Positions 15,808-64,000 of a stretch of DNA of 64,000 bases are shown here, piece after piece. The notes under the pieces are model-generated. The model was not told the DNA's origin, did not search any database, and saw only the letters and a list, made by a program, of their open reading frames with translations. Source of the DNA: Streptomyces sp. WAC08241 (GTDB lineage Bacteria; Actinomycetota; Actinomycetes; Streptomycetales; Streptomycetaceae); assembly GCA_007858575.1 (NCBI GenBank), contig CP042279.1:2542001-2606000 (forward strand), in the 5' to 3' direction. Position 1 is the stretch's first letter, and each line of letters starts with the position of its first letter. Made by a program: the position numbers and the translations under genes.

Positions 15808-16148
15808 CCCAGTGCCTCCAGGCCCGATCCGTCCGGGATTGTGCCCGGCCCTTCGACCGTACGCCCGACCACGGATCACGTGCGAACGCTTGTTCTGTCC
15901 GGGCTGCCGGACGGACACGGTCGCAGGCGATGTCCCGCCGGTCCGTCCCGGGGACCTGCCGAGCGTACGCGGGCCGCACGGGATCCGACTGCCGCCTATC
16001 CACCAAACGAAACCTCCGGGGACGGGGCCGGAGCCGCACATGCCGGACGCCCTGCCGGCCTTCATCGACGGCCATGCCGCCGAATCGATCCCCTCACCGT
16101 CCGCCCCGCGGGCCTCGGGCGGCCGGCGGGGCGGAGGGAGGGGAAGGG
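15808..16148. other. Intergenic region upstream of AraC regulator
   Basis: About 340 bp between the catalase stop and the AraC start. I see no gene. Sequence near 15850-15900 is slightly less G/C-rich and could hold the regulator's promoter. No clear repeat or terminator hairpin was recognised. Confidence 0.35.
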
Positions 16149-30135: not shown

Positions 30136-30242
30136 CCCCTTTCCGGGTGCGGGCCGCTTCACGGCGGCCCGCACCCGGCCTTGGCCGCTTACGCCCTGAC
30201 GCGGCGGGTGACCACCCGCGGGGCAGCGAAGGGAGAACACCG

Positions 30243-41936: not shown

Positions 41937-42019
41937 CTCCCCATCCAGCCAACCTGATGGATAGTCACAAACCTTTGGCCAGTGCTTACTTGCATGCCGT
42001 TCCTAGGGGAGCTCCACCC

Positions 42020-43692: not shown

Positions 43693-43784
43693 CCAACCGC
43701 CCGAGCCCGCCGTCAACCACCCAACGGCACCACCACCGCCTTCCCCGCGCACGCCAAGACCCCTGAACCCCCGAAAAGAGCACC

Positions 43785-44383: not shown

Positions 44384-45568
44384 CCGTCTTCATCAACATC
44401 AACGTCCTGCACCCCTTCCCCTGTCCAACCTCAACCGCGACGACCTCAACAGCCCCAAGATCGCCGTGTACGGCGGCGTCGAACGCTCCCGCGTCTCCTC
44501 GCAGTCCACCAAGCGCACCACCCGCCACCAGACCGAGAAGACCTCGGCGACAAGGCGCTGCGCACCCGACGCGTCCCGGCCAAGGTCGCAGCGGAACTCC
44601 AGGACCGCGGCTGGACCAAGGAAGAGGCGGACAAGGCCGGGCAGGCCGTCGCCCTGGCCTCCGGCGTCCGAGGCCTCGCCATCGCCGAGGCCGGCACCAC
44701 CACCGTCATGCTCTACCTCCCCGAGGCCGGCATCAGCGCCCTGGCCGACCTCGTCGAGAAGAACCGCGACACCATCACCAAGGCCGCCGCCCACGCCGAG
44801 GCCGAAGCCGCCGCGGACAAAACGGGAAGCAAGACCAAGGCACCCAAGCTCGACAAGGAGACCGCCGCCGAGGTCAAGGCCGTCCAGGCCGAAGTCCGCG
44901 CGATCCTCGCCTCCCGCAACGCCTCGATCGCCGCGTTCGGCCGCATGCTCGCCAACACCCCCGAGGTCACCGTCGACGGCGCCGTGTCCGTCGCCCACTC
45001 CATCACCACCCACGCCACCGCCGAACAGAGCGACTTCTTCACCGCCGTCGACGACGTCCCCGGCACCGACAACGGCTCCGCCCACATGGGCAACGCCCCC
45101 ACACCTCCGGCACGTTCTACAAGCACGCCACCGTCAACGTCGGCGAACTCATCCGCAACCTCGACAGCGACACCAACACCGCCCGCGACTTCCTCACCTC
45201 CTTCCTACGCGAGTTCACCGTCTCCGTCCCCCAGGCCAAGAAGAACTCCACCGCCCCTTCACCCCGCCCGCCCTCACCTACTCACCGTGCGCACCGACCA
45301 GCCCATCAACCTGGCCACCGCGTTCGAAGCACCCGTCACCGCCACCGACACCTCCGGCTACACCACCCCGAGCATCACCGCCCTGACCAAGCACGTCGAA
45401 GCGGTCAACGACTTCTACGGAACCACCGGCCTCAAGGCCGCCGCGTACTCCGGCACCGCCCCCACCCTCGACCAGGCCACCACCCTCGGAACCCACATCA
45501 AGAACCTGGACGACCTCGTCGAGCACATCGTCAACGCCGCCCTGGACACACAGGAGAACGCCGAATGA
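44380..45568 (+). CDS. casC: Type I-E Cascade backbone Cas7e/CasC
   Basis: About 395 residues from GTG 44380-44382. Reads VTVFININVLHPFPLSNLNR-type start, then SPKIAVYGGVERSRVSSQST (the RVSSQSxKR RNA-binding loop), FTAVDDVPGTDNGSAHMGNA, SGTFYKHATVNVGELIRNLD, FLTSFLREFTVSVPQAKKNS and ITALTKHVEAVNDFYGTTGL. Six copies polymerise along the crRNA. Four single-base gaps are bridged. It is GTGA-coupled to casB and ATGA-coupled to casD. Confidence 0.93.
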
Positions 45569-46294
45569 CCAGCGGCTTCCACCTCCACCCGACCGGCCCC
45601 TCCAGTCCTACGGCGGCCCCCAGGGCGGCCGCGTCCGCGACACCCACCCCCACCCCACCCGCTCCGCCCTCACCGGCATGATCGCCGCCGCACAAGGCCG
45701 ACCCCGCGGAACCGACCTCACCGACCTCGACGCCCTCACCTACACCATCCGCGTCGACCGGCTCGGCGAACGCCTCCGCGACTGGCACACCGTCGGCGGC
45801 GGCTATCCCAAACACCAGACCGTCATGACCGCCGACGGCAGCGCCGCGGCGCCGCCGTCATCTTCGAGGACTACTTCCTCGCCGACGCCGCCTTCACCGT
45901 CGCCGTCACCGGCCCCCAGCACTCCTGGGCCAGGCGGCCACCGCGCTCGCCCGTCCTGTCTTCCCCCGTACCTCGGCCGCCGCGCCTGCCCGCCCGCACT
46001 CCCCGTCCTCATCGGCACCAGCACCGACCCCATCACCGACCTCGACCGGCTCCCCTCCACCGCGAGCAGCCACGCAAGGACCAGCCCACCGTCGACATCC
46101 TTTCATCGCCGAACACCCCCCGCCGACGAACCCCACAGACCACCCACCCGGCACATCAGCGACGCCCCCTGCCTGACTGCCGCTACGCCGCCCGGCCCGT
46201 CTGGGAAACCCGACGTTCCCTCCCCGCCGCCCTCTGCACCGGCTACGGCACCCCGTACCTCACGGCCCTCACCGCGACCCGCACCATCACCTGA
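45565..46294 (+). CDS. casD: Type I-E Cascade Cas5e/CasD
   Basis: About 240 residues. After repair the start reads GFHLHLTGPLQSYGGPQGGR, then THPHPTRSALTGMIAAAQGR (P-T-x-S-x-x-x-G-x-x-AAAxG, the Cas5e signature). RLGERLRDWHTVGGGYPKHQ, AVIFEDYFLADAAFTVAVTG and PVFPPYLGRRACPPALPVL follow. It binds the 5' handle of crRNA. ATG overlaps the casC stop. Shifts near 45600, 45845 and 45930. The stop is taken at TGA 46292-46294. Confidence 0.92.
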
Positions 46295-46348
46295 CCAACC
46301 CGACCGACCCGCACCCGCACTCGCGGGAGTCCTCCACCGGAGCCCATC

Positions 46349-47035
46349 ATGACCACCATCTCCGCCACCGCGTACCTCACCCGCGTCCAGCTCAACCCCC
46401 GCAGCCGTGAAGCCGCCCGCGACCCGACCGACGTCCAAAACCTCCACCGCCGCGCCATGTCCCTCATCCCCGACCAGCTTCGGCTCCGCCGAAACCCGCC
46501 AGGCCTCCGGCCTCCTCTACCGCCCTCGAACGCACCCCCGCGCCCACACCCTCCTCCTTCAGTCCTACGCCCCCTCGACCTCGACGCCCTCCCCGTCGGC
46601 TACGCCCTCGCCACCGACGACCGCGACCTCACCCGCCTTCTCCACTGGCTCGCCCCCGGCCGCACCGTCCGCTACCGCATCGACGCTCAGCCCTACCGCT
46701 CCTCCCCAGCCCCGTCGACGACCGCGACACCGAAGGCTGCCGCAAGCGCGGCACCAAGATCCACATCTTCGGCGACGACGCCATCACCTGGTGGCATCGC
46801 AAAGCCACACAAGCCGGCCTCACCACCACCAGCGGCGTCCTCGCCACCCAGCAGCCCGACGTCACCGGCTGGAAAGACGACCCCGCGAAACCGGCAAGCG
46901 CATCCACATCTACGGCAAACGCACCCGCTTCGAAGGCACCGCCACCATCACCGACCCCGACGCACTGCGCACCGCGATCCTCCAAGGAGTAGGGCGTAAC
47001 TGCGCCTACGGCGCCGGCCTCCCTCCATCGCCCCC
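46349..47035 (+). CDS. casE: CRISPR pre-crRNA endonuclease Cas6e/CasE
   Basis: About 225 residues starting MTTISATAYLTRVQLNPRSR. Reads LTDVQNLHRRAMSLIP (His of the active site) after a shift, GSAETRQASGLLYRLER-type, TLLLQSYAPLDLDALP, RYRIDAQPYRS, RIHIYGKRTRFEGTATITDP and GVGRNCAYGAGLLSIAP, the glycine-rich RNA-binding loop of Cas6e. It cuts at the base of the repeat hairpin. The end is unclear: no stop is in frame before the first array, probably because of base errors near 47030. Confidence 0.9.
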
Positions 47036-47161
47036 TCAACCACACCCGACCTCCGACAACCCACGAAAGAAGGCACCGGCCAGAACCCGCTCTTCGCAGC
47101 CCCGACGTTCTACATTGGCAAAGAAAAGCAAAGCCCACCCAACGCCGCAGGTCGCGAAGGG
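47036..47161 (+). promoter_or_regulatory. Putative leader of CRISPR array 1
   Basis: About 125 bp between the end of casE and the first repeat. It holds an A/T-richer segment (ATTGGCAAAGAAAAGCAAAG at 47114-47133), unusual for this genome. Position and composition fit a leader/promoter. The first repeats next to it are the most conserved, and the degenerate ones are at the far end. Confidence 0.6.
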
Positions 47162-47619
47162 GAGCGACCCGCACGCGCGGGAGTCAACCGACGGCCAGCT
47201 CGGTGGCGGTCTGCCTGTGTGCGGAGCGACCCGCACGCGCGGGAGTCAACCGGTGTTCGCGCGGCCGCGGACGATGCCGGACCCGAGCGACCCGCACGCG
47301 CGGGAGTCAACCGCGCACGAGCTCGGGGCCGTGCCCACCGACCCAGAGCGACCAGCACGCGCGGGAGTCAACCGCTCTACCTGGGCGAGCAATCCGAATG
47401 GCGGGCGAGCGACCCGCACGCGCGGGAGTCAACCGAAATCCGCGAATCCGGTGGAGAGGTCACGACCGGAGCGACCCACACGCGCGGGAGTCAACCGGCG
47501 TCGGACTCCACGAACAGGTCGCCGAGGGAGAGCGACCCGCACGTGCGGGAGTCAACCGTTCCGCCGCGCCAAGCGGGTGCAGGCGACCGCGAGCGACCCG
47601 CACGCGCGGGAGTGCACCG
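47162..47619 (+). CRISPR. CRISPR array 1 (type I-E, eight repeats)
   Basis: Eight copies of a 29-bp repeat with core GACCCGCACGCGCGGGAGTC, starting GAGC and ending AACCG, period 61-62 and spacers of 32-33 bp. Starts near 47162, 47224, 47285, 47346, 47407, 47469, 47530 and 47591. Copies 4, 6 and 7 carry single substitutions in the stem, and copy 8 ends GTGCACCG, so decay runs left to right. The GAG...AACCG frame matches the E. coli type I-E repeat on the same strand, so transcription from the casE side is expected. A vestigial repeat half may remain near 47661. Confidence 0.95.
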
Positions 47620-47810
47620 GTCCAACCGGTGTGGTTGATGTCCTACCGCTACTTGGCCTGCATCTGCGGGAGTCGGCCGGCGGGGTACTCGGTGAGGTCA
47701 AGTATCCGAAGGCTGCCTGCCTACGCCGGAGTGCGGCGACAGTCGATCAACGTGCGAACCGGGCTCGCCTGCATGTGCGAACGCACTTGATGGCGTGCAT
47801 GAGGAGTGAG
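47620..47810. other. Gap between array 1 and cas3
   Basis: About 190 bp with a degenerate repeat-like piece (CTGCGGGAGTCGGCCGG at 47664-47680) and otherwise non-coding sequence. It ends with the cas3 ribosome site GAGGAGTGAG immediately before ATG 47811. Confidence 0.5.
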
Positions 47811-50565
47811 ATGTCTGACCGGGTTGGTGTATGGATCTGGGCCAAGTTCAGCAATTTGCCGTGGCCGTATCCGCTGATCTGCCACATGCTCGACACCGCT
47901 GCGATGGTCGGTGTGCTGTGGGACGAGTTCCTCGACGAAGGGCAGCGCCGGCAGATCGCCGACGGCTTCGGTACATCGGTCGACGAAGCCCGGGCCATGG
48001 CCATGTTTTGGGCTGGGCTGCACGACATCGGGAAGTGCTGTCCGCACTTCGTCGGCCAGCCCTCCGGGCCGAAGCCAGAGCTCCTTGACGAGCCCGAGTT
48101 CGCTGCGGCAGCCGGGTGGATGCACGAGGAACCGATCCGGCACGAACGGGTCTCGCACCTGGTGGTGCCGACCCTCCTGGCCCGGTACGGCTACCCGGCG
48201 GGGTTGCGGCCGTCGCGGTCCGTCGCGCACCAGGTGGGGCAGATCCTCGGTGGCCACCACGGCCGGTACGGACTGGCGCTGGATAGGGCCACCATGGCCG
48301 ACCCGGGCAAGGCCGAGCCCCGTGTCGGAACGGCGTCCGGCTGGGTCGCACAGCGCCATGCCCTGACCGACGCCCTGTTCGACGCATGCGGCCGCCCTGT
48401 CCCGCCTACCCGCGTGGCGCCGGCCGGAACGGCGGTGATCGTGACCGGGCTGATCGTCCTGGCCGACTGGCTCGCCTCCCAGACCGACTGGCTCCTCGCC
48501 CGAGGAACCCAGTGGTACACCGCCAAGGACGATGACCACGTCGCGCACTACGCCCGCGCCGTCAAGGCCGCTCCCAGACATGTACAGGCCGCACAGCTCG
48601 GCACCGCCTCCTGGAAACCCGCCGGCACCTTCCAGGAGGTCTTCCCCACATTACCCGCCCCCACCCCTCCAGGCCGACCTCGCAGCACACCTGCCCGACG
48701 TGACGAAGGGACCGGGACTGCTGCTCGTGACTGCGCCGACCGGCGACGGGAAAACCGAATCCGCCCTCTACGCCGCCCGCATCATGGGCTAGGCCTCAGG
48801 CCGGACCGGCCTGGCACTCTTCCCGCCGACGATGGCCACCACCGACGCCATGTGGCTGCGCACCCGCACCTACACCGCCGCCTCGACGCTCACCGACACC
48901 CCGGTCACCCTCGTCCACTCCATGGCCTGGCTGAACACCGACTACGACCATGCCGGTGACATCCTCACCGAGGGCTGCACCAACACCTTCGCAGGAGACT
49001 GGATCCGCGGCCGCCACCGCCCCTGCTCTCCCCCGTCACCGTCGGCACCTGGGACCAGGGCACGATCGCCACTCTGCCCGTCCGCTTCAACGCCATGCGC
49101 TGGCTCGCGATGTCCGGGAAAACCATCATCGTCGACGAAGCCCACGCCTACGACGCCTTCGGCCACGCCCTGACCGTCCGCCTCCTCGAATGGCTCGGCC
49201 ACCTCGGCGCACCCGTCATCCTGCTCTCCGCCACCCTCGCCGGATCGATCGCCCGCCGCCTCGTCGACGCCTACCGCACCGGCGCCGGCCACACCACCCC
49301 CAGCACCACCACCCCCGCCTACCCCGGCTGGCTCTACACCGACGCCACCACCGGCCACATCACCGCCTCCGACACCATCCCCACCACCCGCGCCCGCTCC
49401 CTCACCGTCGACCTGCTCGACACCCGGCACACCCACGACCCCACCGACACCACCGGCCGCGCCTCCGCCCTCGACCAACTCCTCGCCCCGCTCTACGACA
49501 CCACCGCCGACTCCGGCGCCGCCCTCCTCGTCTGCAACACCGTCCCCGACGCCCAAGCCACCTACCGACAGCTGACCGCACGCACCGGAACCCGCCGCCC
49601 CCGCATCCTCCTTCTCCACGCCCGCATGCCCTCTGGCAACGCGACGAGACCACCCGCAGCCTCCTCGCCATCCTCGGCCCCAAAGCCACCCGCCCCACCA
49701 CCCCCGTCATCGTCGTCTCCACCCAGCTCGCCGAACAGTCCCTCGACATCGACGCCGACCTCGTCGTCAGCGACCTCGCCCCCTCGCCCAACTCCTCCAG
49801 CGAGCCGGCCGCGGCCACCGCCACGAACTCGGCACCCGCGGCACCCGACCGGCCTGGGCCCCCACCCCCGCCCTCGCCATCCTCAACCCCACCGGACAAC
49901 TCCCCCACGCCCCTGGGGCAACGTCTACGACCCAGCCCTCCTGCGCCGCACCCGCGACCTCCTCACCAGCCGGAAAGACACACCGATCGACGTACCCGGC
50001 CACATCGCCACGATGATCGAAACCGTCTACGCCGACCTCAACGAACTCGCCGACCAAGCCCTCACCGACGACCAGCAGCGCGCCGCCCGCGAAGCCGCCG
50101 ACACCGCCACCGGCGATGCCCGCACCATCCCCACCCCGGCCACGGTCACCGACCTGTACCCCTCACCACCTACGACGGCGACGAAGACGACCTCGTCACC
50201 CGACTCGGCGCGGACAGCCTCCGCCTCCTCCCCACCTACACCACCCCCGACGGCCAGACCTACCTCGACCCCGCCTGCACCCGCCCACTGCCCACCCCGC
50301 CACCCGAGCACAAACAGCTCGACCGCGACACCGTCGCCGCCCTCGTACGCCTCACCGTCACCCGCCCCGGCACCTACCTCCCCACCAGCGACCCGCACAC
50401 CAAACCCCCGCCGACTGGTCCCGCACCCCCATCGCACGAGACCTCCGCCTCCTCCCCCACCCCACCACCGCAGGCATACCGCAGCCGTATACCGCCGGCA
50501 GACACACCCTCCACCTCGACCCCGAACTCGGAATCGTCCGCACCCCTGTCACACCCCGCCATTAG
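47811..50565 (+). CDS. cas3: CRISPR-associated nuclease-helicase Cas3 (type I-E), with an internal amber codon
   Basis: About 910 residues. The HD nuclease domain is clear: MLDTAAMVGVLWDEFLDEGQ (first His), MFWAGLHDIGKCCPHFVGQP (HD) and VGQILGGHHGRYG (HH). The helicase has Walker A TAPTGDGKTESALYAARIMG, the DEAH box IIVDEAHAYDAFGHALTVRL, motif III LLSATLAGSIARRLVDAYR, and VIVVSTQLAEQSLDIDADL with the Q-x-x-R-GRxHR segment after a shift. The C-terminal domain ends LGIVRTPVTPRH. An in-frame TAG at 48790-48792 follows Walker A where Gln is expected. Other defects are single-base shifts. It degrades target DNA once Cascade binds. Confidence 0.93.
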
Positions 50566-50597
50566 ACTCCGCCCAGCCACCGCACCTTGACAAAGAA
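50566..50597 (+). promoter_or_regulatory. Short leader-like sequence before CRISPR array 2
   Basis: Only about 32 bp separate the cas3 stop from the first repeat. It contains TTGACA at 50587-50592 followed by AAGAATCC. The same sequence recurs at the internal cas3 relic (about 53387-53411). It could be a -35 element of an array promoter or the trailer flank, since the array's direction is unresolved. Confidence 0.45.
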
Positions 50598-53185
50598 TCC
50601 GTCCCCGCAGATGCGGGGTCTTCCGCGGGACCAGATCCGCCAGTACGGCAACGCTGTATCGTCCCCACCCCTGCGGGGTGCGCAGACGCCGACGATCTGG
50701 CCCGGCCCGTACGCCCCGCGCTTCCCGACCAACGGGGTGTACCGGCGTGGGCGGCCTGGCGCGCCTTGCCGGTGTACCGCTGGCGTAGTGTGTTCTCGCC
50801 GAAGCGAGGGTCTTCCGGAGTTCTGGTGCCCGGTCGGCATGGAACGGGCGTTATCCCGGCGCCTGCGGGGAGGGGGCGCCTCGGTGCTGCGTGCCCGGGT
50901 GGCGGAGATGGTCGTCCCCGCGCCTGCGGGTTTTACTCCCGCGCGGTCGCCAGGGCGGCGTAGACGCCGGCGTCGTCCCCGCGGCCGCGGGGTTGCTCCT
51001 TGTCCTGGGTCTCCTTCTTCGAGCCGGTACCATCATCCCCGCGTCTGCGGGGTTGCTCCGTCCAGCTTCGCGCGACCGCTTTCCATCACCTGTCGTCCCG
51101 CGCCCGCGGGGTTGCTCTACGCAGGTCACCAAGCAGGACGTGACGCGCGGGTCATCCCCGTGCCTGCCGGGTTGCTCCCACATACGGATATCCGTATGCG
51201 ACGGTCCCGGATCGTCCCCGATCCGCAAGGATTGCTCGTACGCCGGCCCGGCCGCCCACGGCCTCGATGTGTCGTCCTCGCGCCCACGAGGATTGCTTTG
51301 CGGACTCGGCCGTACTGACCACCCAGGCCGAGGCCGTCCCCGCTTCCGCAGGGATTACTCGCCGAGTGTGGTGCCGAGATGCCGGAGCATGAGGTTGTCC
51401 TCGTGCCCGCGGGGTTGCCCTCCACGCTCCCCGACGCGGCGATCGAAGTCTCGTCGTCCCCGCGCCTGCGGGGTCGCTCCCCCTCGACGCGGCCCCCGAC
51501 CGCCCTCGGTGTCGTCCTCGCGCCCGCTGGGGGTCCCCGTCGTCCCCGCGCCCGCGGGAATTTCTCGCCGAGCGGGCCGTCGACCACCTCACCGGCCGCG
51601 TCGTCCCCGCGCCCGCAGGGGTTGCTCCGGGCGGCCGTCCAGGAGGGAGCGGCCGATCGGGTCGTCCCCGCGCCCGCGGGGTTGCTCCTGCAGCCGGAAT
51701 CCGACAGCCAGCCGGCCATCGTCGTCCCCGCGCCCGCAGGGGTTGTCCGCACGCCTGCGCCATCGCACTCCTGGACCACCCGTCGTCCCGCGCCCGCGGG
51801 GTTGTCCCGGTCCCACGCCTGGGCGGCGCTCCTCGCGCTCGTCGTCCCCACGCCCGCGGGGGTTGTCCGGTGGCGGTCATCATCACGGCCACCGGCATGA
51901 TGTCGTCCCCGCGCCCGCAGGGGTTGTCCCTCGCTCGCTTTGTAGCCCCACTGGTCGGCGCGTCGTCCCGCGCCCGCGGGGTTGTCCCCACGTCGCACAG
52001 ATCGCCCCTGCTGGCTCCTGGTCGTCCCCGCGCCTGCGGGGTTGCTCCCGATGGTGATCCACCGGCTCTCCGACCTGCTGTCGTCCCTGCGCCCGCGGGG
52101 GTTGTCCCGTGACGGTGACGGGGGTGCCCGGAAGCGCGCCGTCGTCCCCGCGCCTGCGGGGTTGTCCCGGGTCGCTGGACTCGGCGCATTTGGCGGTGTC
52201 GTCGTCCTCGCGCCCGTGGGGTTGTCCCTGGCCGAGGCGATGCAGCACCACCGCGTCCCGGTCGTCCCGTGCCCGCGGGGTTGCTCGGCCCAGATGCGGG
52301 CGCGGGCCTCCCGCTCGAGTCGTCCCCGTGCCCGCGGGGGTTGCTCGGCCCAGATGCGGGCGCGGGCCTCCCGCTCGGAGTCGTCCCGCGCCCGCGGGGT
52401 TGCTCCCCGAGACCCTCACCGTCCTCGCCGCCGGGCTGTCGTCCCGCGCCCGCGGGGTTGCTCATTGGTCGTCTTGACCTCGTCCTTGGACATCTGGTTG
52501 TCCCCGCGCCTGCGGGGTTGTCCCGCGATGGCCCGGCGGCTCGGACTCCAGGGGCCGTCGTCCCCCGCGCTCGTGGGGTTGCTCGCCTGCCGCTCAGACC
52601 GGAGGGACCCCCGCTCGTCGTCCCCGCACTCGCGGGGTTGCTCGGACCTGCTGCTCGAAGACCTCGCCAACTAGTCGTCGTCCCCGCGCCGGCGGGGTTG
52701 CTCCACCTTCCTGCTGGGGTTCTCCGGGCTTGGCTTGTCGTCCCCGCATCCACGGGGTTGTCCCGTGCACGGCGGGATCATCGACGAGCTGCTCGTGTCG
52801 TCCTCGCGTCCGCAGGGGTTCTCGACGAACGCCGCACTCCCGGACGGGACGAAGGTGTCGTCCCGCGCCCGCGGGGTTGTCCGGTGTACGTGAGCGGGAC
52901 GACGACGGCTTGGTTGTCGTCCCCGCGCCTGCGGGGTTGTCCGCAGGTCAAGGAGCGGTACGCCGCCCGACGGTACGTCGTCCCCGCGCCCGCAGGGATT
53001 GCTCGACCTGGAGCGCCACGTAGGCGCGAAGGGGTATGTCGTCCCTGCGTCTGCGTGGGGTTGCTCCCGGGAGAGGACACAGCCGGATACCGCGTCGTCG
53101 TCCCCGCGCCCGCGGGGCTGCTCGTACTACACGAGCGGACCCGACCCGCGCTGGAGGTCGCCCCGGTGCCCACTGGGGTTTCCCC
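50598..53185 (+). CRISPR. CRISPR array 2, first segment (about 42 units)
   Basis: Repeats with core GTCCCCGCGCCCGCGGGG, preceded by GTC and followed by TTGCTC or TTGTCC, total about 28-29 bp at a 61-bp period with 32-bp spacers. The first four or five units (to about 50900) are strongly degenerate (for example TCCCGACCAACGGGG and TCGCCGAAGCGAGGG), after which copies are regular. Two adjacent spacers near 52286 and 52346 are identical. The palindromic stem and the strand pattern are those of type I-E repeats. Ends at the internal cas3 relic. Confidence 0.95.
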
Positions 53186-53411
53186 TCGTACGCCTCACCA
53201 TCACCTATCTCCCCACCAGCGACCCGCCCCTCCCCGTCGACTGGGCCCGCACCCCCATCGCACGAGACCTCCGCCTCCTCCCCCACCACCGCAGGCATAC
53301 CGAAGCCCTACACCGCCAGCAGCCACACCCTCCACCTCGACCCCGAACTCGGAATCGTCCGCACCCCTGTCACACCCCGCCATTAGACTCCGCCCCAGCC
53401 ACCGCACCTTG
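53186..53411 (+). pseudogene. cas3: Second copy of the cas3 3' end inside the array
   Basis: This stretch is a diverged copy of 50343-50597. It contains the same end of the cas3 C-terminal domain (CACGAGACCTCCGCCTCC, then ACCGCAGGCATACCG), the coding end at TAG 53384-53386, and the post-stop TTGACAAAGAATCC that leads straight into a repeat. It differs from the main copy by a ~14-bp deletion near the start and scattered substitutions. Only about 200 bp of cas3 are present, so it is a relic. It shows that a [cas3 end + array] unit was duplicated or two arrays were fused. Confidence 0.88.
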
Positions 53412-54149
53412 ACAAAGAATCCATCCCCGCACATGCGGGGTTGCTCGATCTCGGCCAGCACGGCGAGGTCGCCGTTGATGTCGTTCCCGTGCCTGCGGGG
53501 TTGCTCCAGCTACAGGTTCCGATCCGGCAGTGGGCCTGTGTCGTCCCCGCGCCCGCGGGGTTGCTCCTCCTTCGCGTCGCCCGTCAGGGCCGCGCCGAAG
53601 TCGTCCCGCGCCCGCGGGGGTTGCTCGACCCACGCCTTCACCATGCCCCCGCCCTCGTGTCGTCCCGCCCCCGCGGGGTTGTCCCGTGCACGGTGGGATC
53701 ATCGACGAGCTGCTCGTGTCGTCCTCGCGTCCGCAGGGGTTGCTCCTCGAGTCGGCCTGCCTGGAACTGACCCGCCTCGTCGTCCCCGCACTTGCGGGGT
53801 TGCTCTGCCTGAGCACCTACGGATTTTTCGGAGGTGGCGTCGTCCCCGCGCCCGCGGGGTTGCTCGCGGACGGCTGTTTCACTGAGTGAAACGCGCGAAG
53901 TCGTCCCCGCGCCCGCAGGGAATGCTCCCGGCTCACCGTCCCGTACGAGCTGCCCGCCGGGTCGTCCCCGCGCCTGCGGGGTTGTTCGTCGATTCTCTTC
54001 CGCGGTGGCACGGGTTCCTGTCGTCCCCGCGTCCGCGGGGTTGCTCCTGCGGGACGACGCCGGATCGCAGGTACCTGAGTCGTCCCCGCGCTCGCGGGGG
54101 TTGCTCGTCGACGGGGCAGCAGCGCCGCATCGAGCAGATCCTCGGCAAC

Positions 54150-54330
54150 GTCGACACGGTCCTCCCCTGCCGACGCGGGGGTGTTCCGATCGTCTGGTTT
54201 ATGCGGTCCTGGAGCAGTATGTCTTCTGTCAGTGCAGGGGCGCTCCCTAGCTGAGGCCGCCGCGCGCGAGCTGGATCTCGTTCTCCTCACCGACACGGGG
54301 GTGTTTCGACGGACAAGACACCTAGGAGGT
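54150..54330 (+). repeat. Diverged CRISPR block, copy A
   Basis: Contains spacers S1 (GATCGTCTGGTTTATGCGGT...) and S2 (TAGCTGAGGCCGCCGCGCGC...), flanked by atypical repeats such as CCTGCCGACGCGGGGGTGTTCC and GTCAGTGCAGGGGCGCTCC in shortened form. Partial and the most diverged of four copies of the same spacer series. Confidence 0.75.
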
Positions 54331-54904
54331 CAGCGACTGGGTTTTCCCCGCCTCCGCAGGGGTTGCTCCCCGCGGCCGCTGACGAGGAGGGCGAGGCGTC
54401 GTCCCCGCACCTGCGGGGGTTGTCCGAACGGGCTTGCGCAGGACGGCACCGAGGCGCTGTTATGCCCGCGCCCGCGGGGTTGCTCCGGATGATCCGGGGC
54501 GAGTTCGTGGGCAACGTGGTAGTCCCGCGCCCGCGGGGTTGCTCCAGCTCGGCGCGGGCCTTCTTCCGCCCGGCACCGTCGTCCCCGCGCTCGCGGGGGT
54601 TGCTCGACGTGGGTCTGTACCGCCGTATGCGGCTGTGGTCGTCCCCGCGCCTGCGGGGTTGCTCGACCGTCGCGGCAGTCGGCTCCCCGGCGCTCGCGTC
54701 GTCCCCGTGCTCGCGGAGGTTGCTGGCCCGCTGGGATTTGGAGCGCGCCGAGCTGATGACAGTCCCGCGCCCGCGGGGTTGTCCCCGCGCCGCCTGGACC
54801 GGGCCTGAGCCGCGTAGTCGTCCTCGCACCCGCGGGGGTTGCTCTCAAGGGAAGGTCGAGAGCAGGCCCGCCGTATCGTCGTCCCCGCGCCTGCGGGGGT
54901 GTTC

Positions 54905-55185
54905 GGCTGGCCTGATCGCCTTCCTCCGCCTCACCGCGTCCTCCTGCCGAAGCAGGGGTGTTCCAATCGTCTGGTTGATCCGGTTCTGGAGCGGGGTGGC
55001 TTCCCCGTCAGCGCGGGGGCGCTCCGTAGCGAAGGCTGCCGCGCGCGAGCTGCATCTCGTCCTCCTCACCGGCGCGGAGTGTTCCATGGCCGTACGGTCA
55101 CGCCAAGAACATGAGGTTGTCCTCCCGCTGACGCGGGGCTGCTCCTGGCCGAACGGACCGCCGGCCTGCAGCCCGAGGTCGCCCT
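54905..55185 (+). repeat. Diverged CRISPR block, copy B
   Basis: Five consecutive spacers S0-S4: starting GGCTGGCCTGATCGCCTT, CAATCGTCTGGTTGATCC, GTAGCGAAGGCTGCCGCG, ATGGCCGTACGGTCACGC and GGCCGAACGGACCGCCGG. The repeats between them have a stem of the form CCCGTCAGCGCGGGGGCG or CTCCCGCTGACGCGGGGC, clearly different from the array consensus. The most complete copy together with D. Confidence 0.8.
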
Positions 55186-57902
55186 TGCGTCTGCGGGTTT
55201 ACTCGACGATCGCCCACGACAGGCGGAGTGCCTTCTCGTCGGCCCCGCGCCCGCAGAGGTCGCTCCCTGACAATGACTGGTGGTGGCAGCCTCGCCGGGT
55301 CGTCCCGCGCCCGCGGGGTTGTCCCGTGAAGCCGCTCCCGTACGACAGGAGCATCACGTCGTCCCCGCGCCCGCGGGGTTGTCCGCCCCACTCCTTGGGG
55401 TGCACGCGCATGGAGAAGTCGTCCCCGCGCCCGTGGGGGCGTCCCCACGCCCGCGGGGGTTGCTCGTTCTGGCACTTCGGAGGAGAGAAGCTCGTCTTGT
55501 CGTCCCCGCGCCTGCGGGGTTGCTCGGCACCCGCCCTCGTGGCGCGCGGGAGGCACCGGGTCGTCCCCGCGCCCACGGGGGTTTCCCAGCTTCTGTTCGC
55601 CGGCCACGAGCGACGTAGTGTCGTCCCCGCGCACGCGGGGTTGCTCGGAAGTCCGCGTCGCGTCCGGCACCGCAGGCACGTCGTCCCGCGCCCGCGGGGT
55701 TGCTCCTTCTCCATGCCGCTCGGGTAGAGGCTCAGCACGTCGTCCCCGCGCACGCGAGGGTTGCTCGTCGCCCTGTGTGTCCGGCGCGTGCGGGTCGACG
55801 TCGTCCCCGCGCCTGCGGGGTTGTCCCTGCGTGACGCTGTCGACGGACGGTGTCCCGGTGTCGTCCCCGCGCCCGCGGGGTTGCTCGACCGCCCGCGACG
55901 ACCTCGCGTTCCTCGCCCAGTCGTCCGCGTCCGTGGGGGTTACTCCGACGACACGGTGAACGCCAGCGCGATCCTGTCGTTGTCCCCGCGTCCGCAGGGG
56001 TTGCTCCCTCGGGCCGCTCACCGTGTACAGGCCGGACGGGTCGTCCCCGCGCCTGCGGGGTTGCTCGCGACCGACGACATCGACACCCAGGTGATCGAGT
56101 CGTCCCCGCGCCAGCGGGGTTGCTCCTTCGGGTTGCTCGCGGCAGCCTCTTCCAGCTCGTCGTCCCTGCTCCCGCGGGGGTTACTCCGTGAGGGTGGTCA
56201 GGAGCTGCGGCGGAACTGGTCGTCCGCGTCCGCGGGGGTTGTCCGAGGTCGGGCTCTAGTGATCAGGGTCGTCCCCGCGCTCGCGGGGGTTGCTCGTTCT
56301 GGCGCGGCGTGTTCACCGGGACCCTCATGTCGTCCCCGCGCCCGCGGAGGTTGCTCTCTGGCCGGCACGTACCAGTCGGCAGGGCAGTAGTCGTCCCCGC
56401 GTCCGCGGGGTTGTCTGCCGCCGCGCGTTGCGGCTGACCAGTACGGAGCGTCGTCCCCGCGCCCGCGGGAGTTGTCCCGCGATCACGAGCGGGGCGATCA
56501 CGAGCGTCGTATCGTCCCCGCGCCCGCGGGGGTTGTCCCGAGTCCCTGTCCGACGCGGCGGAGCAGCTGCGGGTCGTCCCCGCGCCCGCGGAGGTTGCTC
56601 GAACTCGGTGGCCGCGTACGCGGCGTTCCAGCGGTCGTCCCCGCGCCCGCAGGGGTTGCTCCTCGGAGGCCGGCCTGCAGTAGAGACGGCTGGAGCCGTC
56701 CCCGCGCCTGCGGGGTTGCTCCCCGTAGTTGTCGTGCTCGGGCGTGATCAGACGGTCGTCCTCGCGCCCGCGAGGTTGCGCCCTGGTCGGTCTCGGATTC
56801 TCAGACCCGTACCGTTGTTCCCGTGTCCACGGGAGTTGCCCCGGTGGACACGACATCCAGATCGCCATGGGCCAATTCTTCCCGCGTCTGCGGGGTTGCT
56901 TCTCGTCCGGGCCCGGCCCTCGGCCGCGCGCTTGTCGTCCCCGCGCCCGCAGGGGTTGCTCCGCGGCGGCCATCTTCAGCACCCCGACGCCCAGGTCGTT
57001 CCCGCGCCCGCGGGAGTTGCTCCCTGCGGTAATCACCCCGGAGGGGGTACTGACCGTCGCCCCCGCGCCTGCGGGAGTTGCTCCGCGCACGAGATCGAGC
57101 GGACGGTCGCCTCGGGGCCGTTCCCGCGCTCGCGGGGTTGCCCTCCGGGCACGTGCCCGGAGGGCAAGGTGGTGGTCGTCCTCGCGCCCGCGGGGGTTGC
57201 TCGGGGGCCGTCAGGGGCGTTAGGACGGCCGATGTCGTCCCCGCGCCCGCGGGGGTTGCTCCCGCGCCGCCGACACCACCCAGCAGTAGCCCGCGTCGTC
57301 TCCGCGCCCGCGGGGTTGCTCGGCTGCGAGCTCGGCAGAGGCAGCGCCCGCGTTGTCGTCCCCGCGCCCGCGGGGGTTGCTCACTACGGACATGCAGGTC
57401 GGAGGGGATCCGGCGTCGTCCCCGCGCCCGCAGAGGTTGCTCGGGCGACCACGTCACCCGCATGGGCCAGGCCCTGCCGTCCTCGCGCCTGCGGGGGTTG
57501 CTCGACGAGGCCGGTTGGCTGCGCGCGCAGATGGCTGTCGTCCCCGCGCCCGTAGGGGTTGCGCCGGCACGATGTCGAGATCGATGCCGGACAGGCCGTC
57601 GGCCCCGCGTCTGCGGGGTTGCTCCTGCTGCCGGGTGCTGAGGATGATGGCTCCGTCGTCGTCCCGCGCCCGCGGGGTTGCTCGACGACGCAGGCCTCGC
57701 CGGACGTGCTGAGCGCGTCGTCTCCGCGCTCGCGGGGTTACTCGACGGTGAGCAGGGCGCACCGTTCGGCGGTCATGCCGTCCCGCGTCCGCGGGGTTGC
57801 TCGTGGACGGCACCTGCACCATGCTCGACGCGTCGTCGTCCCCGCGTCCCCGTGCCTGCGGGGTTGCTCAATTGTGAGCGAACGGAACCGTCGCTACCTG
57901 CC

Positions 57903-58065
57903 GTCGTCCCCGTCAGCGCGGGGTGCTCCGTAGCGAAGGCTGTCGCGCGCGAGCTGCATCTCGTCCTCCTCGTCGGCGTGGGGTGTTCCATGGCCGTACG
58001 GTCACGCCGAGAACATGAGGTTGTCCTCCCTGCTGACATGGGGGTTGCCCGGCCAAGATCGTCAG
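57903..58065 (+). repeat. Diverged CRISPR block, copy C
   Basis: Spacers S2 (GTAGCGAAGGCTGTCGCG...) and S3 (ATGGCCGTACGGTCACGC...) in the same order as in copy B, with repeats CCCGTCAGCGCGGGGTGC, CTCGTCGGCGTGGGGTGT and CTCCCTGCTGACATGGGG. Normal repeats flank it on both sides. Confidence 0.8.
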
Positions 58066-61000
58066 TGGGGAGCTGTCCCACGGGTCGTCCCCGCGCCCGC
58101 AGGGGTTGCCCCTGGGCATCGATACGGCCTCGTCCGAGGTGGACGTCGTCCCCGTGCCCGCGGGGTTGCTCGCCGCTCATGGTCAGGACGGACACCCAGA
58201 CCGCTTCGTCCCCGTACCCGCGGGGTTGCTCCGCTTGGCGGCACCTGACCGCCGTCGCCCGCGCGTCGTCCCCGCGCCCGCAGGGGTTGTTCGTAGGGCA
58301 CACCGTGGAAGATCATCCGGAGCATGTCGTCCCCGCGCTCGCGGGGTTGCTCCAGGAAGGTCGTCGCGGTGACCGCGAGGGCGACGTCGTCCCCGCGCCC
58401 GCGGGGGTTGCTCCCGGCCTGCCCCAGCGCCGACTCCCCCGACCGTGTCGTCCCGCGCCCGCGGGGGTTGCTCGGGCATCGCCGCAGGTGAATACGCCTA
58501 CGGCGCGTCGTCCCCGCGCCCGCGGGGTTGCTCCGTGGTCGTCGAGCCGGCCATGAAGCTGATGCGGCCATCCCCGCGCCTGCGGGGGTTGCTCGGACTT
58601 CACCTGCGAGGCCGTGGGCCTCGGGGGCCGTCCCCGCGCCTGCGGGGTTGCTCCCGCACGGACCTGAAGGGGCTGTGCGACTACCTGTCGTCCCCACGCC
58701 TGCGGGGATTGCTCGGCAGCAGGAGGGAGCACGGCCCCAAGAGCAGGGTCGTCCCCGCGCCTGTAGGGGTTGCTCGACCGCTTGGGCGCCTCCGCCCGGC
58801 TCGATCAGGTCGTACCCGCGCCTGCGGGGTTGCTCAGCCTTGCGCAGGGCGGCGCTGACGGCCTGGTGGTCGTCCCCGTGCCTGCGGGGTTGCTCGCCGC
58901 GGGTGACCGGGGCGCTCGTGTGGTGCTCGTCGTCCCCGCGCCCGCAGGGGTTGCTCAACCACCGCCCCCAGCCCTCACCTACCCGGCGTCGTCCGCCCCG
59001 CGGGGTTGTCCGAGCGCGACCGCGAGGTGCTGACCGAGCCACAGTTCGTCCCCGCGCCTGCGGGGTTGCTCGCGGCGCCCGCTGGTCGAGCAGGACCGCG
59101 ACATGTTGTCCTCACGTCCGCGGGGGTTGCTCCGGCACGTCGACGGACACTTCCGAGGGCCGGGGTCGTCACCGCGCTCGCGGGGGGCGAGCTTGTCGAC
59201 TATGGGGCCCGCGACGTCGCCCCTGCGCCTGCGGGGGTTGCTCGCACTACCGCGTCGGCCCGTCCCGGGACTGGGGGTCGTTCCCGCGTCCGCAGGAGTT
59301 GCTCCATCTAGGTCAAGGTTCTCGGCCGGGCGGTCTCGTCGTCCCCGCGCCCGCGAGTTGCTCGACGAGGACGGACCGAGAGATCCTGTCGTCCCCGCGC
59401 TCGCGGGAGTTGCTCCACCCCGGCGTCCAGCAGTACGCCGGCTCGCGTCGTCCCGCGCCCGCGGGGGTTGCTCAGCCATGGTGGGAACCACGATCTGCCG
59501 GACCGCGTCGTCCCCGCGCCTGCGGGGGTTGCTCGGCACAGCTCGCCGGTGAGATGCGGGACCTGGTGTCGTCCCCGCGCCCGCAGGGGTTGCTCCGCGG
59601 CGGCCATCTTCAGCGCCCCGACGCCCAGGTCGTTCCCGCTCCCGCGGGGTTGCGCCGAGACGGTCAGCGCGGCCGGGCGGATGACGGGGTCGCCTCCGCC
59701 TCTGCGGGAGTTGCTCCATCTGAGCTGGCGAGATCGGCACCTACGAGGGCCGTCCCTCCCCCGCAGGGGTTGCTCGGTGCCGTCACGGGTCTCCGGCGGC
59801 CCTTCGACGTCGTCCCCGCGCCCGCGGGGATTGCTCCCACCGTGAGTCGTCCCTGCGCTCGCGGGGTTGCTCCCGGCCGCATTCCTCACCGCCGGCCGCG
59901 CGCTGTCGTCCCCGCGCTCGCGGGGTTGCTCGGCGTGCACCTTTACCCGTAACGCGGCTCCCACGTCGTCCCTGCGCCCGCGGGGTTGCTCTCCGGCTTT
60001 CAGGACGTGCCGCTGCCGCTCGGAGTCGTCCCCGCGTCCGCAGGGGTCCCAGGTACAGCGGCGGCGCTCGCCGCGATCCCTTGTCGTCTCCGCGCCTGCG
60101 GGGTTGCTCCTCCGGCATGGCCAGGCCGGGCGGATCGTCGTCATCCCGCGCCCGCGGGAGTTGTCCTCGGAGTGTTCGGCAGGTGTGGGTCAGGCGGTCG
60201 GTCGTCCCGCGCCCGCGGGGTTGCTCGTGCGTGCCATACTCCTGCACGATCGCGGGCACGTCGTCCCGCGCCCGCGGGGGTTGCTCGGCGGGTATGCCCG
60301 ACTGGTACATCAGCGTCCGGTCGTTCCCGCGCCCGCGGCGGTTGCTCGGCCGCGCGGAAGGACTACCCGTCGACCCTGACGTCGTTCTCGTGCCCGCGGG
60401 GTTGCTCCTGGCCGAGCGCACCGGGGCCGAGTCCGTCACCGTCGTCCCCGCGCCCGCAGGGGTTGCTCCATGACGCTGAACCACTTCGCGGACGTCTCTT
60501 GTCGTCCCGCGCCGCGGGGGTTGGTCCCACTGGGGGCGTGAGCTCTCACGTCGGAGGCGTCGTCCCCGTGCCCGCGGGGTTGCTCGACCTCCGCGCGGGA
60601 GCGCCGTGGCACCGTGGTGTCGTCCCCGTGCCCGCGAGGGTTGTCCGCCGTTCAGGCGCAGCAGCCGGATGGCGTGTCCGTCGTCCCTGCGCCCGCCGGG
60701 GTTGCTCCGCGCCAACCGTCGCCGAGCTGACCGCTGGCGCGTCGTCTCCGCGCCCGCAGGTGTTGCTCCGCCGCGCATGAGCGCGCCCAGCGGGTCTTCG
60801 CGTCGTCCCCGTGCGCGGAGGCTGCTCGCCCGTGTCAGCCGTCCGGGTCGAGACCTGGAGGCCATCCCCGCACTCGCGGGGTTGCTCGGTCGAAGGAATC
60901 CTCCCGTTCCACGCCTACGTGTCGTCCCCGCGTCCGCAGGGATTGCTCGACCCACCTCGCCGCCTGCGCAGCCGTCTGGTTGTCGTCCCGCGCCCGCGGG

Positions 61001-61429
61001 GTTGCTCGAGCGCCACGAGCACCGCGTACGGCATCAACCGGTCGTCCCCGCACACGCGGGGATCGCTCCACCGTCTACCACGTCGACAAGATCCCCGTGA
61101 CGTTGTCCCCGCGCCTGCGGGGTCGTCCACACTTGGCGGCCGGGAGGCTCGCGCGGGTGTCGTCGTCCGCAGGGGTTGTTCCTTCGAAGGCCGGCCGACG
61201 CCGTAGTAGTACAGATCATCCTCGCGTCCGCGGGGTTGCTCCACCCTCGTCGTCACCAAGTCCCGTGCCCGCATGTCGTCCCCGCGCCTGCAGGGGTTGA
61301 TCGGCCCTGAACGCCCTGGAGGGCCTCAACCTCGCGTCGTCCCTGCGACTGCGGGGTTGCTCCACGGGCAGCGCCCGGTCGTCCTGTTCGTGCTCGTCGT
61401 CCCCGCGTCTGCGGGGTGTTTCGGCCAGC

Positions 61430-61700
61430 CTGATCGCCTTCCTCCATCTCACCGCGTCCTCCCTGCCGAAGCAGGAGTGTTCGGATCGTCTGGTTGATCC
61501 GGTTCTGGAGCGGGATATCTTCCCCGTCAGCACGGGGTGCTCCGTAGCGAAGGCCGCCGCGCGAGCTGCATCTCGTCCTCATCGCCGGCGCGGGTGTTCC
61601 GTGGCCGTACGGCCACGCCAAGAACGTGAGGTTGTCCTCCCCGCTGACGTGGGGCTGCTCCTGGCCGAACGGACCGTCGGCCTGCACCCTGAGGTCGCCC
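61430..61700 (+). repeat. Diverged CRISPR block, copy D
   Basis: Spacers S0-S4 again in the same order (CGGCCAGCCTGATCGCCT..., CGGATCGTCTGGTTGATC..., GTAGCGAAGGCCGCCGCG..., GTGGCCGTACGGCCACGC..., GGCCGAACGGACCGTCGG...), differing from copy B by a few percent of positions. Repeats are of the same diverged type (CCTGCCGAAGCAGGAGTG, CCCGTCAGCACGGGGTGC). Confidence 0.8.
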
Positions 61701-62123
61701 CGCGTCCGCGGGGTTGCTCGCGGTCGGCGGCGAGCGGGGCGGCCATCACGCAGTCGTCCCCGCGCCTGCGGGGTTGCTCCTCGGGGCGGCGCCGTCCGCG
61801 TCGACCCGGGTGTCGTCCCCGCGCCCGCGGGGGTTGCTCCCCGGGTACGGGCGAGCCTGCCCGACCGACTGAGTCGTCCCCGCGCCCGCGGGGTTGTCCG
61901 ATCAAGACCTACAGTCGGTCGCCCGTCATCTGGTCGTCCCTACGCCCGCAGGGGTTGCTCGTCGACGATGCTCCGGGCGATCCTCGACGCGCTGTCGTCC
62001 CCTCGTCCGCGAGGGTTGCTCGCCGCGCCGGCTCGGGTACGTCCTGGAGCAGCTCGTCGTCCCCGCGTTCGCGGGGTTGCTCCAGGCCCAGGGGCAGTCG
62101 ATCAGGAGGTCGTCGCCTTCCCG

Positions 62124-62206
62124 TGTCCGGTCTCCGTGAGGGTGGCGAGTGTCCCGCTGCTCCTGACGAATTGGCTGGAGCCATGCCGTTACGGCTGGCC
62201 GTGCCG
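62124..62206 (+). repeat. Left terminal inverted repeat of the cassette
   Basis: Pairs with 62738-62820 in inverted orientation. The first 16 bases (TGTCCGGTCTCCGTGA) are identical, the whole ~83 bp are about four-fifths identical by eye. Ends just before the ATG of the enclosed gene. Confidence 0.78.
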
Positions 62207-62221
62207 GTCGTTGAGGTCGTT

Positions 62222-62756
62222 ATGGCTATGCGTGAAGGTTCTTCCCGGTCCTGCGTGATGTGCAGTGCCGGTCTTCTCGGCGGTACGGCGTATCTGGTCG
62301 AAGGTCACCGGGGACGGGGCGCCGGATCCCGGCTCGCTTCCTGATCTGCGCGGCGTGCTACGAGCGGGGGTGTCCGGACCCGGACACGGGCCTGACTCAT
62401 GGCGGCCTCCACTCGGCGAACCGAGTCCGCCGAGTGGTGGGCCCTGGCAGGCCGGGCGCGGCCCTTCCACCTCAGGCGTGCGTCGCCGGATGCGGCCTGG
62501 TGGTGGTGCGCGGGGCGGAGGCGCTGATGCGGGGAGTGACCTGCTCGCGGGCCTGCCGGACATCCCTCACGCGCAAACGTAACGGGGGCGCGGGTCGGGC
62601 CGTTCCTGCGGCGCCTGCGGCGAGACCGTTACGGCTGGGCGTGCAGATTCTGGGTACTGCGATGCCCGGTGCCGCCAGAAGGCCTACCGCCGACGGCAGA
62701 CCGGCCAAGCGCGAGACCCGACCGACAGACCAAACAACCCGCACGGACAGCCGTAA
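62222..62756 (+). CDS. Cysteine-rich multi-zinc-ribbon protein carried in the array cassette
   Basis: About 178 residues, start ATG 62222-62224 (MAMREGSSRSCVMCS; a second ATG is at 62228), stop TAA 62754-62756. Three or four frame changes are bridged. Cysteine pairs occur throughout: SCVMCSAG, LICAACYERGCPDPDTGL, ACVAGCGLVVVRG with GVTCSRACRTSLTRKRN, and RSCGACGETVTAG with YCDARCRQKAYRRRQTG. The last two have the C-x2-3-C...C-x3-C form of treble-clef or HNH-associated zinc ribbons, followed by basic segments. It probably binds nucleic acid. It is the only gene between the inverted repeats. No homology to Cas or anti-CRISPR proteins that I recognise. Confidence 0.7.
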
Positions 62757-62820
62757 CGACACGGCCCAGTCGATTCATCAGGATCAGCGGGACGTCCGCC
62801 ACCGTCACGGAGACCGGACA
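62738..62820 (-). repeat. Right terminal inverted repeat of the cassette
   Basis: Inverted counterpart of 62124-62206. It includes the last six codons and stop of the zinc-ribbon gene. Followed at once by a CRISPR repeat. Confidence 0.78.
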
Positions 62821-64000
62821 TCCCCGCGCCCACAGGGGTTGCTCCCTCGACGTGTCCTCGGCATCCCCCATCACCCCGTCGTCCTCGCGCCCGCGGGGTT
62901 ACTCCCTCGACCGGCTCGCCTGTGGGCTGACCGTTCAGTCGTCCCCGCGCCCGCGAGGGTTGCCTCCGCAGGCCTTGGTACCCGGAGCCGAGGCCGCGTC
63001 GTCCTCGCGCCTGCAAGGAGTTGCTCCCACATACGGATATCCGTATGTGACGGCCCCGCGCCTGCGGGGTTGCTCGGCGGGCTTACTCCTCACCCTGGAC
63101 GGTCTCCTGTCGTCCTGCGCCCGCGGGGTTGTCCGATCGGCGGAAGCTCCGCCCGCCCCTGCTGCTGTCGTCCCCGCGCCTGCGGGGGTTGCTCCCTACG
63201 GAGGGACGGACGGGTCCTTGGTGGTTCTTCGTGCCCGCGCCCGTAGGTTGTGCTCGCTGCGCGAGGCCGAGCTCGCCGGATACGACGGGTCGCCTCCGTC
63301 CGCAGGGTTACGTCGTCCCCGCGCCTGCGGGGTTGCTCCTTGTGATCGAGTGGGTCTACACCAAGGGCATGTCGTCCCCGCGCCCGCGGGGTTGCTCCTC
63401 GCCCGCCTCGCCCACGCCATCCACCTCGTCGTCGTCCCCGCGCTCGCGGGGGTTGCTCCCAGGACTCCGACATCGCACGGGCAATCATGGCGTCGTCCCC
63501 GCGCCTGCGGGGTTGCTCGCCGCGGTGGTCGGCACGCTCCTCGGGTTGCCCGTCGTCCCCGCGCTCGCGGAGGTTGCTCGGCGTGGCTCATCTTGAGCGC
63601 GCCGACGCTCAGGTCGTCCCCGCGCTCGCGGGGTTGTCCGGTCACGGCGGCGGAATTGCCCGCCGTGGTGCCGTCGTCACCGCGCCCGCGGGGTTGCTCG
63701 TTGGCTACTCTGACGGCATGACGAGCCGATCGGTCGTCCCCGCGCCTGCGGGGGTTGCTCGCGCCTGACGGTGGTGGCCACGTCGGTACCGGAGTTGTCC
63801 CGCACCCGCGGGTGTTGCTCGGAGACCGTGAGGAAACCCGCACGGCCGCACTTGTCGTCCTCGCGCCCGCGGGTGTTGCTCGGGCAACCACGTCACCCGC
63901 GTGGGCCAGGCCCTGTCGTCCCCGTGCCCACGGGGTTGCTCCTCGGCAGTAACAAGCGGCACCCGACCGTCGGCGTCGTTCCCGCGCCCGCAGGGGTTAC
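62821..64000 (+). CRISPR. CRISPR array 2, last visible segment (about 19 units, runs off the right edge)
   Basis: Array continues with the same repeat family and 61-bp period to the end of the window, where the last bases (GTCGTTCCCGCGCCCGCAGG) are a repeat. Repeats here are no more degenerate than in the middle, so the array end is not near. Contains relatives of spacers seen earlier (near 63030, 63580 and 63881). Confidence 0.95.

Follow-up and report, generated by a model that had tools for sequence, protein, structure and literature searches.

Genes that sit within CRISPR arrays raise the question of how they came to be there and whether they act on the array, and a 697-bp segment carrying one gene for a cysteine-rich protein raises both in Streptomyces sp. 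WAC08241. We analyzed a 64-kb stretch of this genome (the window; contig 1, positions 2,542,001-2,606,000), in which the segment splits a single repeat of a long array (Table 1). The genome measures 7.28 Mb in 2 contigs. Since reading frames break within the window, as read by eye in a catalase-like gene near 17 kb (15000-18600), the assembly is probably rich in single-base insertions and deletions, a suspicion that the completeness estimate of 55.78% fits.

A cassette with inverted ends splits one repeat of a type I-E-like array

The array extends from about 50.66 to about 66.96 kb, about 16.3 kb in total, with a period of 60-61 bp. Allowing up to six edits, 228 repeats lie between 50601 and 67000 (the final 3 kb being taken from locus L047), eight of them exact, and none were returned by one shuffled copy. 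A looser count with up to eight edits over 46001-75000 gives 253 repeats versus 34 in one shuffle, 45 of the 253 being 4 or 5 edits from the consensus. The cas region lies 5' of the array; beyond its cas5e- and cas6e-like pieces, the remaining genes are presumably cas genes by resemblance, and we take the repeat to resemble that of the E. coli type I-E system. We infer the orientation of the leader from where the cas genes lie and from this likeness. A second small array at 47162-47497, with the cas6-like piece on one side and the following large ORF on the other, contains one 16-mer six times at array spacing. Within the main array, 61602-61900 resembles 55087-55385 (76% over about 300 bp, apparently spacers included), apparently an old or error-laden segmental duplication.

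The cassette occurs once in its own genome. Its two ends (89 and 88 bp) align in inverted orientation at 84% identity (E 1.2e-19) and their outer 16 bases are identical, which bears out a first reading made from the sequence alone. No transposase was recognized among the ORFs read between the ends, again as that reading had stated. The array continues on both sides, with 169 repeats to the left and 59 to the right at up to six edits, the split repeat included in the right count, and the insertion point is about seven tenths of the way along the 16-kb array. The likely effect here is a divided array with 59 repeats, the split one among them, on the side away from the cas genes.

Excising the 697 bp and one 5-bp duplication copy in silico joins the two flanking pieces into a 28-nt repeat after a 32-nt spacer. 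This restored repeat starts 59 bp past the start of the previous repeat and 61 bp ahead of the next, and the array register is regained. The right boundary was already described as lying inside a repeat; the restored register places both boundaries in the same one. The restored repeat is 4-5 edits from the consensus and the presumed target duplication matches at four of five positions, imperfections that we put down to what appear to be a frameshift-rich assembly and a degenerate array. The empty site is a reconstruction from the window sequence, not an observation in another strain: the sequence-only reading had looked to sister strains for an empty repeat or for an ancestral segment between two arrays, and among the matches listed for 40 other genomes of relatives only repeat-level similarity to this part of the array is found.

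Table 1. Features of the window around the interrupted CRISPR repeat
Feature	Positions	Strand	Basis
cas region, frameshifted, 5' of the array	41819..50590	+	cas5e- and cas6e-like pieces by tblastn
CRISPR array, type I-E-like	50658..64000, about 3 kb more past the window end	+	repeat search
Spacer before the split repeat, 32 nt	62083..62114	+	array register
Split CRISPR repeat, left piece	62115..62123	+	register restored minus element and one duplication copy
Presumed 5-bp target duplication, left copy, TCCCG	62119..62123	.	4/5 match to right copy
Whole mobile cassette, 697 bp	62124..62820	+	similarity to S. griseus element L041:2917-3646 begins and stops here; inverted ends
Left terminal inverted repeat, begins TGTCCGGTCTCCGTGA	62124..62212	+	outer 50 bp 43/50 identical to right end
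Core site 1, left end, CGTTACGGCTGGCCGTGC	62187..62204	+	motif match
Core site 2, overlaps start codon, 31 bp past site 1	62218..62235	+	motif match
Zinc-protein gene, split over three frames here	62222..62756	+	three overlapping tblastn pieces, frames 3, 2, 1; start and stop by homology
Core-like site, inverted, inside coding region	62567..62584	-	motif match
Core site in coding region, encodes VTAGRA	62627..62644	+	motif match
Right terminal inverted repeat	62733..62820	-	alignment to left end
Core site, inverted, right end, contains stop codon	62741..62758	-	motif match
Presumed 5-bp target duplication, right copy, TCCCC	62821..62825	.	4/5 match to left copy
Split CRISPR repeat, right piece	62826..62844	+	register restored minus element and one duplication copy

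Similar ends flank different cargoes in other Streptomyces

Local alignment of window positions 62123-62820 with S. griseus NCTC13033 (L041:2916-3646) gives 76.7% over 735 columns, running one chance base past the left end; beyond the element the two loci are unrelated. This comparison keeps the right end at 62820 and moves the left one, which had been set at 62113, to 62124, the bases 62113-62123 being flank. The S. griseus element (L041:2917-3646, 730 bp) has the same gene, the same ends and a perfect duplication, GAAGG/GAAGG. Searching with the outer end sequence identified two further elements with other cargoes. On S. uncialis plasmid NZ_CP109292.1, an element of 493 bp (L079:6001-6493; ends pairing at 45/50 positions; duplication CCCTG/CCCTG) carries not the zinc gene but a gene for a different, 115-aa protein. 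On a Streptomyces chromosome (G444), an element of 6651 bp (L154:690-7340; ends pairing at 47/50; duplication CTCAC/CTCAC) carries IS5 fragments, genes for a 448-aa hypothetical protein and a thymosin-beta-4-like repeat protein, and a later 1616-bp insertion of the NF041680 family. The thymosin-like protein is encoded at L154:4836-5354 and matches Pfam Thymosin with E 7.1e-48.

When duplication lengths of 3-9 bp were tried on the window, S. griseus and S. uncialis elements, only 5 bp matched, in the latter two; we estimate that an exact 5-bp flank match arises by chance in about 1 in 300 to 1000 tries. Bases are coordinated between both ends of an element (CTCCG in the window, CTTCG in S. griseus, CTCAG in S. 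uncialis), and the G444 ends disagree at one base that is coordinated elsewhere (TCTCGG versus TCTCCG). The ends of the family read 5'-TG(T/C)C(C/A)GGTCTNNGTGANGGTGGCGA..., are inverted over about 50-110 bp and come with 5-bp target duplications. Besides the cassette of the window, both outer ends are present in four elements. Three of these show the duplication; the fourth, from S. halstedii (L034), has weak ends (14 and 15 versus shuffle maxima of 12 and 13) and no duplication.

We conclude that the cassette is a discrete element with exact ends, 5-bp duplications at three relatives (four of five positions here), variable cargo and a restored array register. It is very probably a non-autonomous transposon with a passenger gene, of the kind called a mobile insertion cassette, placed in one CRISPR repeat by a transposase encoded elsewhere. 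The earlier suggestion of a small mobile cassette, perhaps mobilized in trans, is thus well supported by the S. griseus copy with the same ends and perfect duplication, and by ends like these that enclose different cargo in S. uncialis and G444. Because of the ends, the fixed duplication length and the exchangeable cargo, we propose that a DDE-type transposase acting in trans would cut at both ends and place the cassette in a single CRISPR repeat, 5 bp of which would be duplicated; that the target was a CRISPR repeat would be a chance event.

It had been suggested that other copies with different or no inverted repeats would speak against mobility, and the other copies have the same ends. Partial versions also occur. 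The Alt3 plasmid (L049) holds a partial copy (87.6%) with a short right end, the right end alone is present in G365 (L004), and S. omiyaensis has a right end at loci L005 and L038, which are one and the same place. Lone outer ends are found on other plasmids, including NBC_00445, NBC_01591 and NBC_00342, and G166 shows a degenerate end-to-end hairpin of about 72 bp with no visible duplication. About 9 kb from its lone end, the plasmid of Streptomyces sp. NBC_01591 carries predicted vanH-vanO-vanX glycopeptide-resistance genes (L105:22567-25090). Separately, about 60 bp of seemingly chromosomal coding sequence (L016:1501-1560) is 82% like the right end, either by chance or as the origin of the end.

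Most relatives of the zinc gene are without recognizable outer ends. On a tree of 18 rows, the outer-end label on six rows, of which L038 and L034 are labelled on weak evidence, needs 3 changes; five of the six fall in one starred clade of eight whose other three rows have no ends. The outer ends and the zinc gene may possibly be two elements, a MITE having captured a core-bounded unit (see below), with several losses or gains.

The passenger encodes a conserved cysteine-rich protein

The sequence-only reading had described a single cysteine-rich ORF, which holds for the relatives, where the gene is one intact ORF, and not for the window: here the coding sequence is spread across three frames, broken in the manner of the catalase-like frame. 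Matches at E <= 0.001 occur in 105 of 392 genomes, mostly over short stretches (about 23-90 bp) of GC-rich DNA; with true relatives of the zinc gene defined as E <= 1e-15, 12 other genomes of the 392 have one. Locus L016 was read and set aside. A scan of one genome per species found 14 loci, and the S. griseus element has matches, in part short ones, in 19 plasmid records; all of these are from Streptomyces. The zinc protein, whole or partial, is present at roughly 28 distinct chromosome or plasmid loci, and its relatives in these searches are confined to Streptomyces. In one genome (G335, L010), same-score copies of the gene lie in opposite orientation near both ends of an 8.2-Mb contig (C1:1105-1644 and 8196428-8196967), probably in the terminal inverted repeats of a linear chromosome.

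Alignment of 19 proteins reveals six cysteine pairs that make three likely zinc sites. Seven cysteines (42, 45, 86, 90, 107, 111 and 132) do not vary, and three more (129, 146 and 150) hardly do; the first pair is absent in several members whose proteins are truncated or whose aligned piece is short. The gene is under purifying selection: ten sequences allow 45 pairs, and the 21 that were computed have dN/dS values of 0.21-0.53.

Profile searches returned little, with no Pfam, NCBIfam or PADLOC family fitting the protein. Four proteins had no Pfam match at E <= 1; across all 19 members the best E value was 0.0066 (zf-C2HC_3, one member), and the most frequent weak match was the DUF2116 treble clef (6/19, best E 0.013), with the curated cut-off seen for the first member and the others judged by E value. 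NCBIfam gave one chance-level match in four proteins, PADLOC none for two proteins, and relatives of the protein matched none of the transposase families searched. The PHROG 1271 profile matches the C-terminal module with E 3.7e-06 in S. omiyaensis and 8.4e-04 in S. griseus, and this module is also weakly similar to treble clefs (DUF2116). An AlphaFold2 model from 11 sequences (mean pLDDT 57.6, pTM 0.44) is too poor for a claim about the fold; Foldseek of the model against the PDB gave no match at E <= 0.001, and hmmsearch of the protein against PDB sequences gave 0. The passenger would be a DNA- or RNA-binding protein kept for its own function, perhaps autoregulation via the 18-bp core sites described below. 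Elsewhere in the window, an ORF at 30147-31232 has a CxxC...YCxxxCR motif that by eye is similar to the C-terminal zinc module.

No transposase with the cassette ends among the genomes searched

Neither a second element with the cassette ends in the same genome nor a transposase with these ends was found, the latter in 392 genomes of the genus searched by pattern, in 293 order and 345 family genomes (overlapping draws) searched by sequence, in plasmids, phages and viral contigs, and in the eight genomes or records behind the key loci. With up to 2 mismatches, the terminal-inverted-repeat pattern matches 12 of the 392 genus genomes, the host included. The 11 others were discarded: each has a single match in a 3-kb locus with no inverted partner, and these matches look like coding sequence, one of them (L088) adjoined by a local palindrome. 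The pattern matches 0 viral contigs, and the terminal repeat has no phage match at E <= 0.01. Among the eight genomes or records, 3-mismatch end matches also occur in G392, G166, G365, G346 and the Alt3 plasmid. Three plasmids with a lone end (NBC_00445, NBC_01591 and NBC_00342) show no second end over the 31, 35 and 17.7 kb examined, the sole exception being an inner match of 18 bp at L105, which is oriented alike.

A transposase of the NF041680/DDE_5 type that adjoins the right end in G444 was considered as a partner and rejected, as it belongs to the 1616-bp insertion (L154:5632-7247), which has its own ends (CTTGTCATTTAT) and its own 5-bp duplication (CTCAA). None of seven NF041680 plasmid homologues examined, from 147 plasmid records with a match, has the cassette ends. 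An IS5-type transposase adjoins locus L011 and IS5 fragments lie inside the G444 element; members of the IS5 family mostly duplicate 2-4 bp. TG...CA termini with a 5-bp duplication and repeated binding sites are features of the Tn7/Tn402/Mu-like, IS21 and IS481 families. The termini and duplication length of the cassette fit several such families and its core sites are repeated, but no matching transposase turned up in the searches. Since no transposase with these ends was found, we do not assign the partner to a family.

Core sites recur in and around the passenger gene

An 18-bp core motif, CGTTACGGCTGNGCGTGC, recurs in the window element (Table 1). In the S. griseus and Alt3 copies each end has two core motifs 31 bp apart, direct at the left and inverted at the right, and a core and an inverted core-like site also lie within the gene; a second right-hand core site is not recognizable in the window element. 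Elsewhere the motif is rare: with up to one mismatch, it is found in 44 of 121 genomes, usually once or twice, against 9 of 121 for a reversed control, and one variant common to many genomes looks like a conserved gene. Beside the zinc gene on S. anulatus plasmids (L051:4848-6850, L052:4859-7499), inverted core sites follow on its 3' side in short runs 52-71 bp apart. At L053, three direct copies 58 bp apart lie on the 5' side. A block running from the left core site to just past the right one is common to two S. palmae copies; this smaller core-bounded unit may itself be mobile, and no clear duplication is seen there. The core sites could be operators of the zinc protein or transposase sites.

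This arrangement bears on a reading in which the zinc protein would be an accessory factor for transposition or maintenance that binds the paired core sites in both ends, the element being half of a two-part mobile system. In its favor, S. griseus and others have two core sites set 31 bp apart, about three helical turns, which at the right end are inverted; the gene itself contains another inverted pair; the S. palmae block is bounded by core sites; the zinc gene is conserved; and the G444 element, which lacks the zinc gene, retains one exact core site at each end. However, the S. uncialis element has neither zinc gene nor core site and yet has the outer ends and the 5-bp duplication, while the position of core site 2 over the start codon fits autoregulation equally well. 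We regard an accessory role as unlikely. A bolder form strikes us as unlikely too: the three-zinc-module protein would be an end-binding factor for the 18-bp sites, which are paired at 31 bp in the ends and recur within the gene, and would cause a foreign transposase to work on these ends, so that the transposase-less cassettes of Streptomyces plasmids and chromosomes would make up a two-component mobile system.

A probable chance insertion rather than a CRISPR-seeking element

In the reading preferred here, the array would be an incidental target. The sequence-only reading had raised the opposite possibility, that the element targets CRISPR repeats or that its zinc protein acts on the array, and nothing beyond this one insertion links the element to CRISPR; neither possibility is supported. 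Deliberate targeting of CRISPR repeats or of hairpin-forming repeats, guided by the element's own protein or by the partner transposase, could draw on the position of the insertion within a repeat and on the Alt3 plasmid copy, which is 2.4 kb from another, clean type I-E array. Yet none of the 37 loci examined that carry a relative, be it of the element or of its ends, has the element inside an array. These loci are partly redundant and many come with 1.5-3 kb of flank; the array detector, which needs exact 16-mers, misses degenerate arrays and picks up just two short runs in the long array of the window. The duplications GAAGG, CCCTG, CTCAC and TCCCG/TCCCC are also without evident consensus. 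We hold targeting to be very improbable. The element also lacks the make-up of a CRISPR-associated transposon, being 697 bp with one gene and with neither transposase nor CRISPR effector inside.

It is very unlikely, too, that the segment is no insertion but ancestral flanking DNA lying between two arrays, or a join made in assembly: what looks like an error-prone assembly, with its 2 contigs, completeness of 55.78% and broken catalase-like frame, leaves room for it, but both flanks fit one repeat in register and the same boundaries recur at an unrelated place in S. griseus.

Comparison with known systems

Mobile insertion cassettes are known from other bacteria, MIC231 of Bacillus cereus among them. 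The qnrS2 cassette of Aeromonas plasmid pAC3 is another, a passenger-carrying "non-autonomous derivative" with 22-bp ends, as its report describes it (PMC5444012). The Streptomyces cassette resembles such elements (MIC/MICE) in having terminal inverted repeats around a passenger gene; it differs from the pAC3 cassette (PMC5444012) in that its family has ends of 50-110 bp and no partner insertion sequence was found in our searches. Its passenger is also an uncharacterized zinc protein, with 18-bp sites in and around the gene. The C-terminal CxxC...YCxxxCRQxAYR module of this protein is like the zinc fingers of phage HNH endonucleases (PHROG 1271), whereas the match spans only positions 182-247 of the 361-position profile and two more Cys4 modules lie upstream in the zinc protein.

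The statement of the sequence-only reading that it knew of no such element described from within a CRISPR array was too strong. In Haloquadratum walsbyi HBSQ001, the MITE HqIRS37 sits in a CRISPR spacer and is likewise a transposase-less inverted-repeat element that breaks an array; it differs in being in an archaeon, in a spacer rather than a repeat, and in a residual array, the strain having no cas genes, and the Haloquadratum MITE with a likely ORF is reported to belong to another family, HqIRS32 (PMC3119063). In S. avermitilis, the CRISPR II locus is divided by four transposase genes, so that a Streptomyces type I-E array is again broken by mobile DNA, there by transposase-encoding elements (PMC4762764). 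Further reports describe insertion sequences in cas genes, together with a MITE search there (PMC10359306), and a 1.9-kb pseudo-spacer in Sulfolobus (PMC3718332). Among the open-licence PMC papers listed in our searches there was no closer Streptomyces element of such kind in a CRISPR array, and no description of a Streptomyces cassette family with these ends and a 5-bp duplication.

Taken together, the proposed mechanism is ordinary and insertions into arrays have precedents, while the cassette family is new. Our analysis defines this Streptomyces family by its ends, its duplication length and three different cargoes. It offers a clean example of a CRISPR repeat split by a cassette with cargo, no CRISPR-seeking element being shown, and the part of most interest is the conserved, unannotated zinc protein with its paired 18-bp sites.
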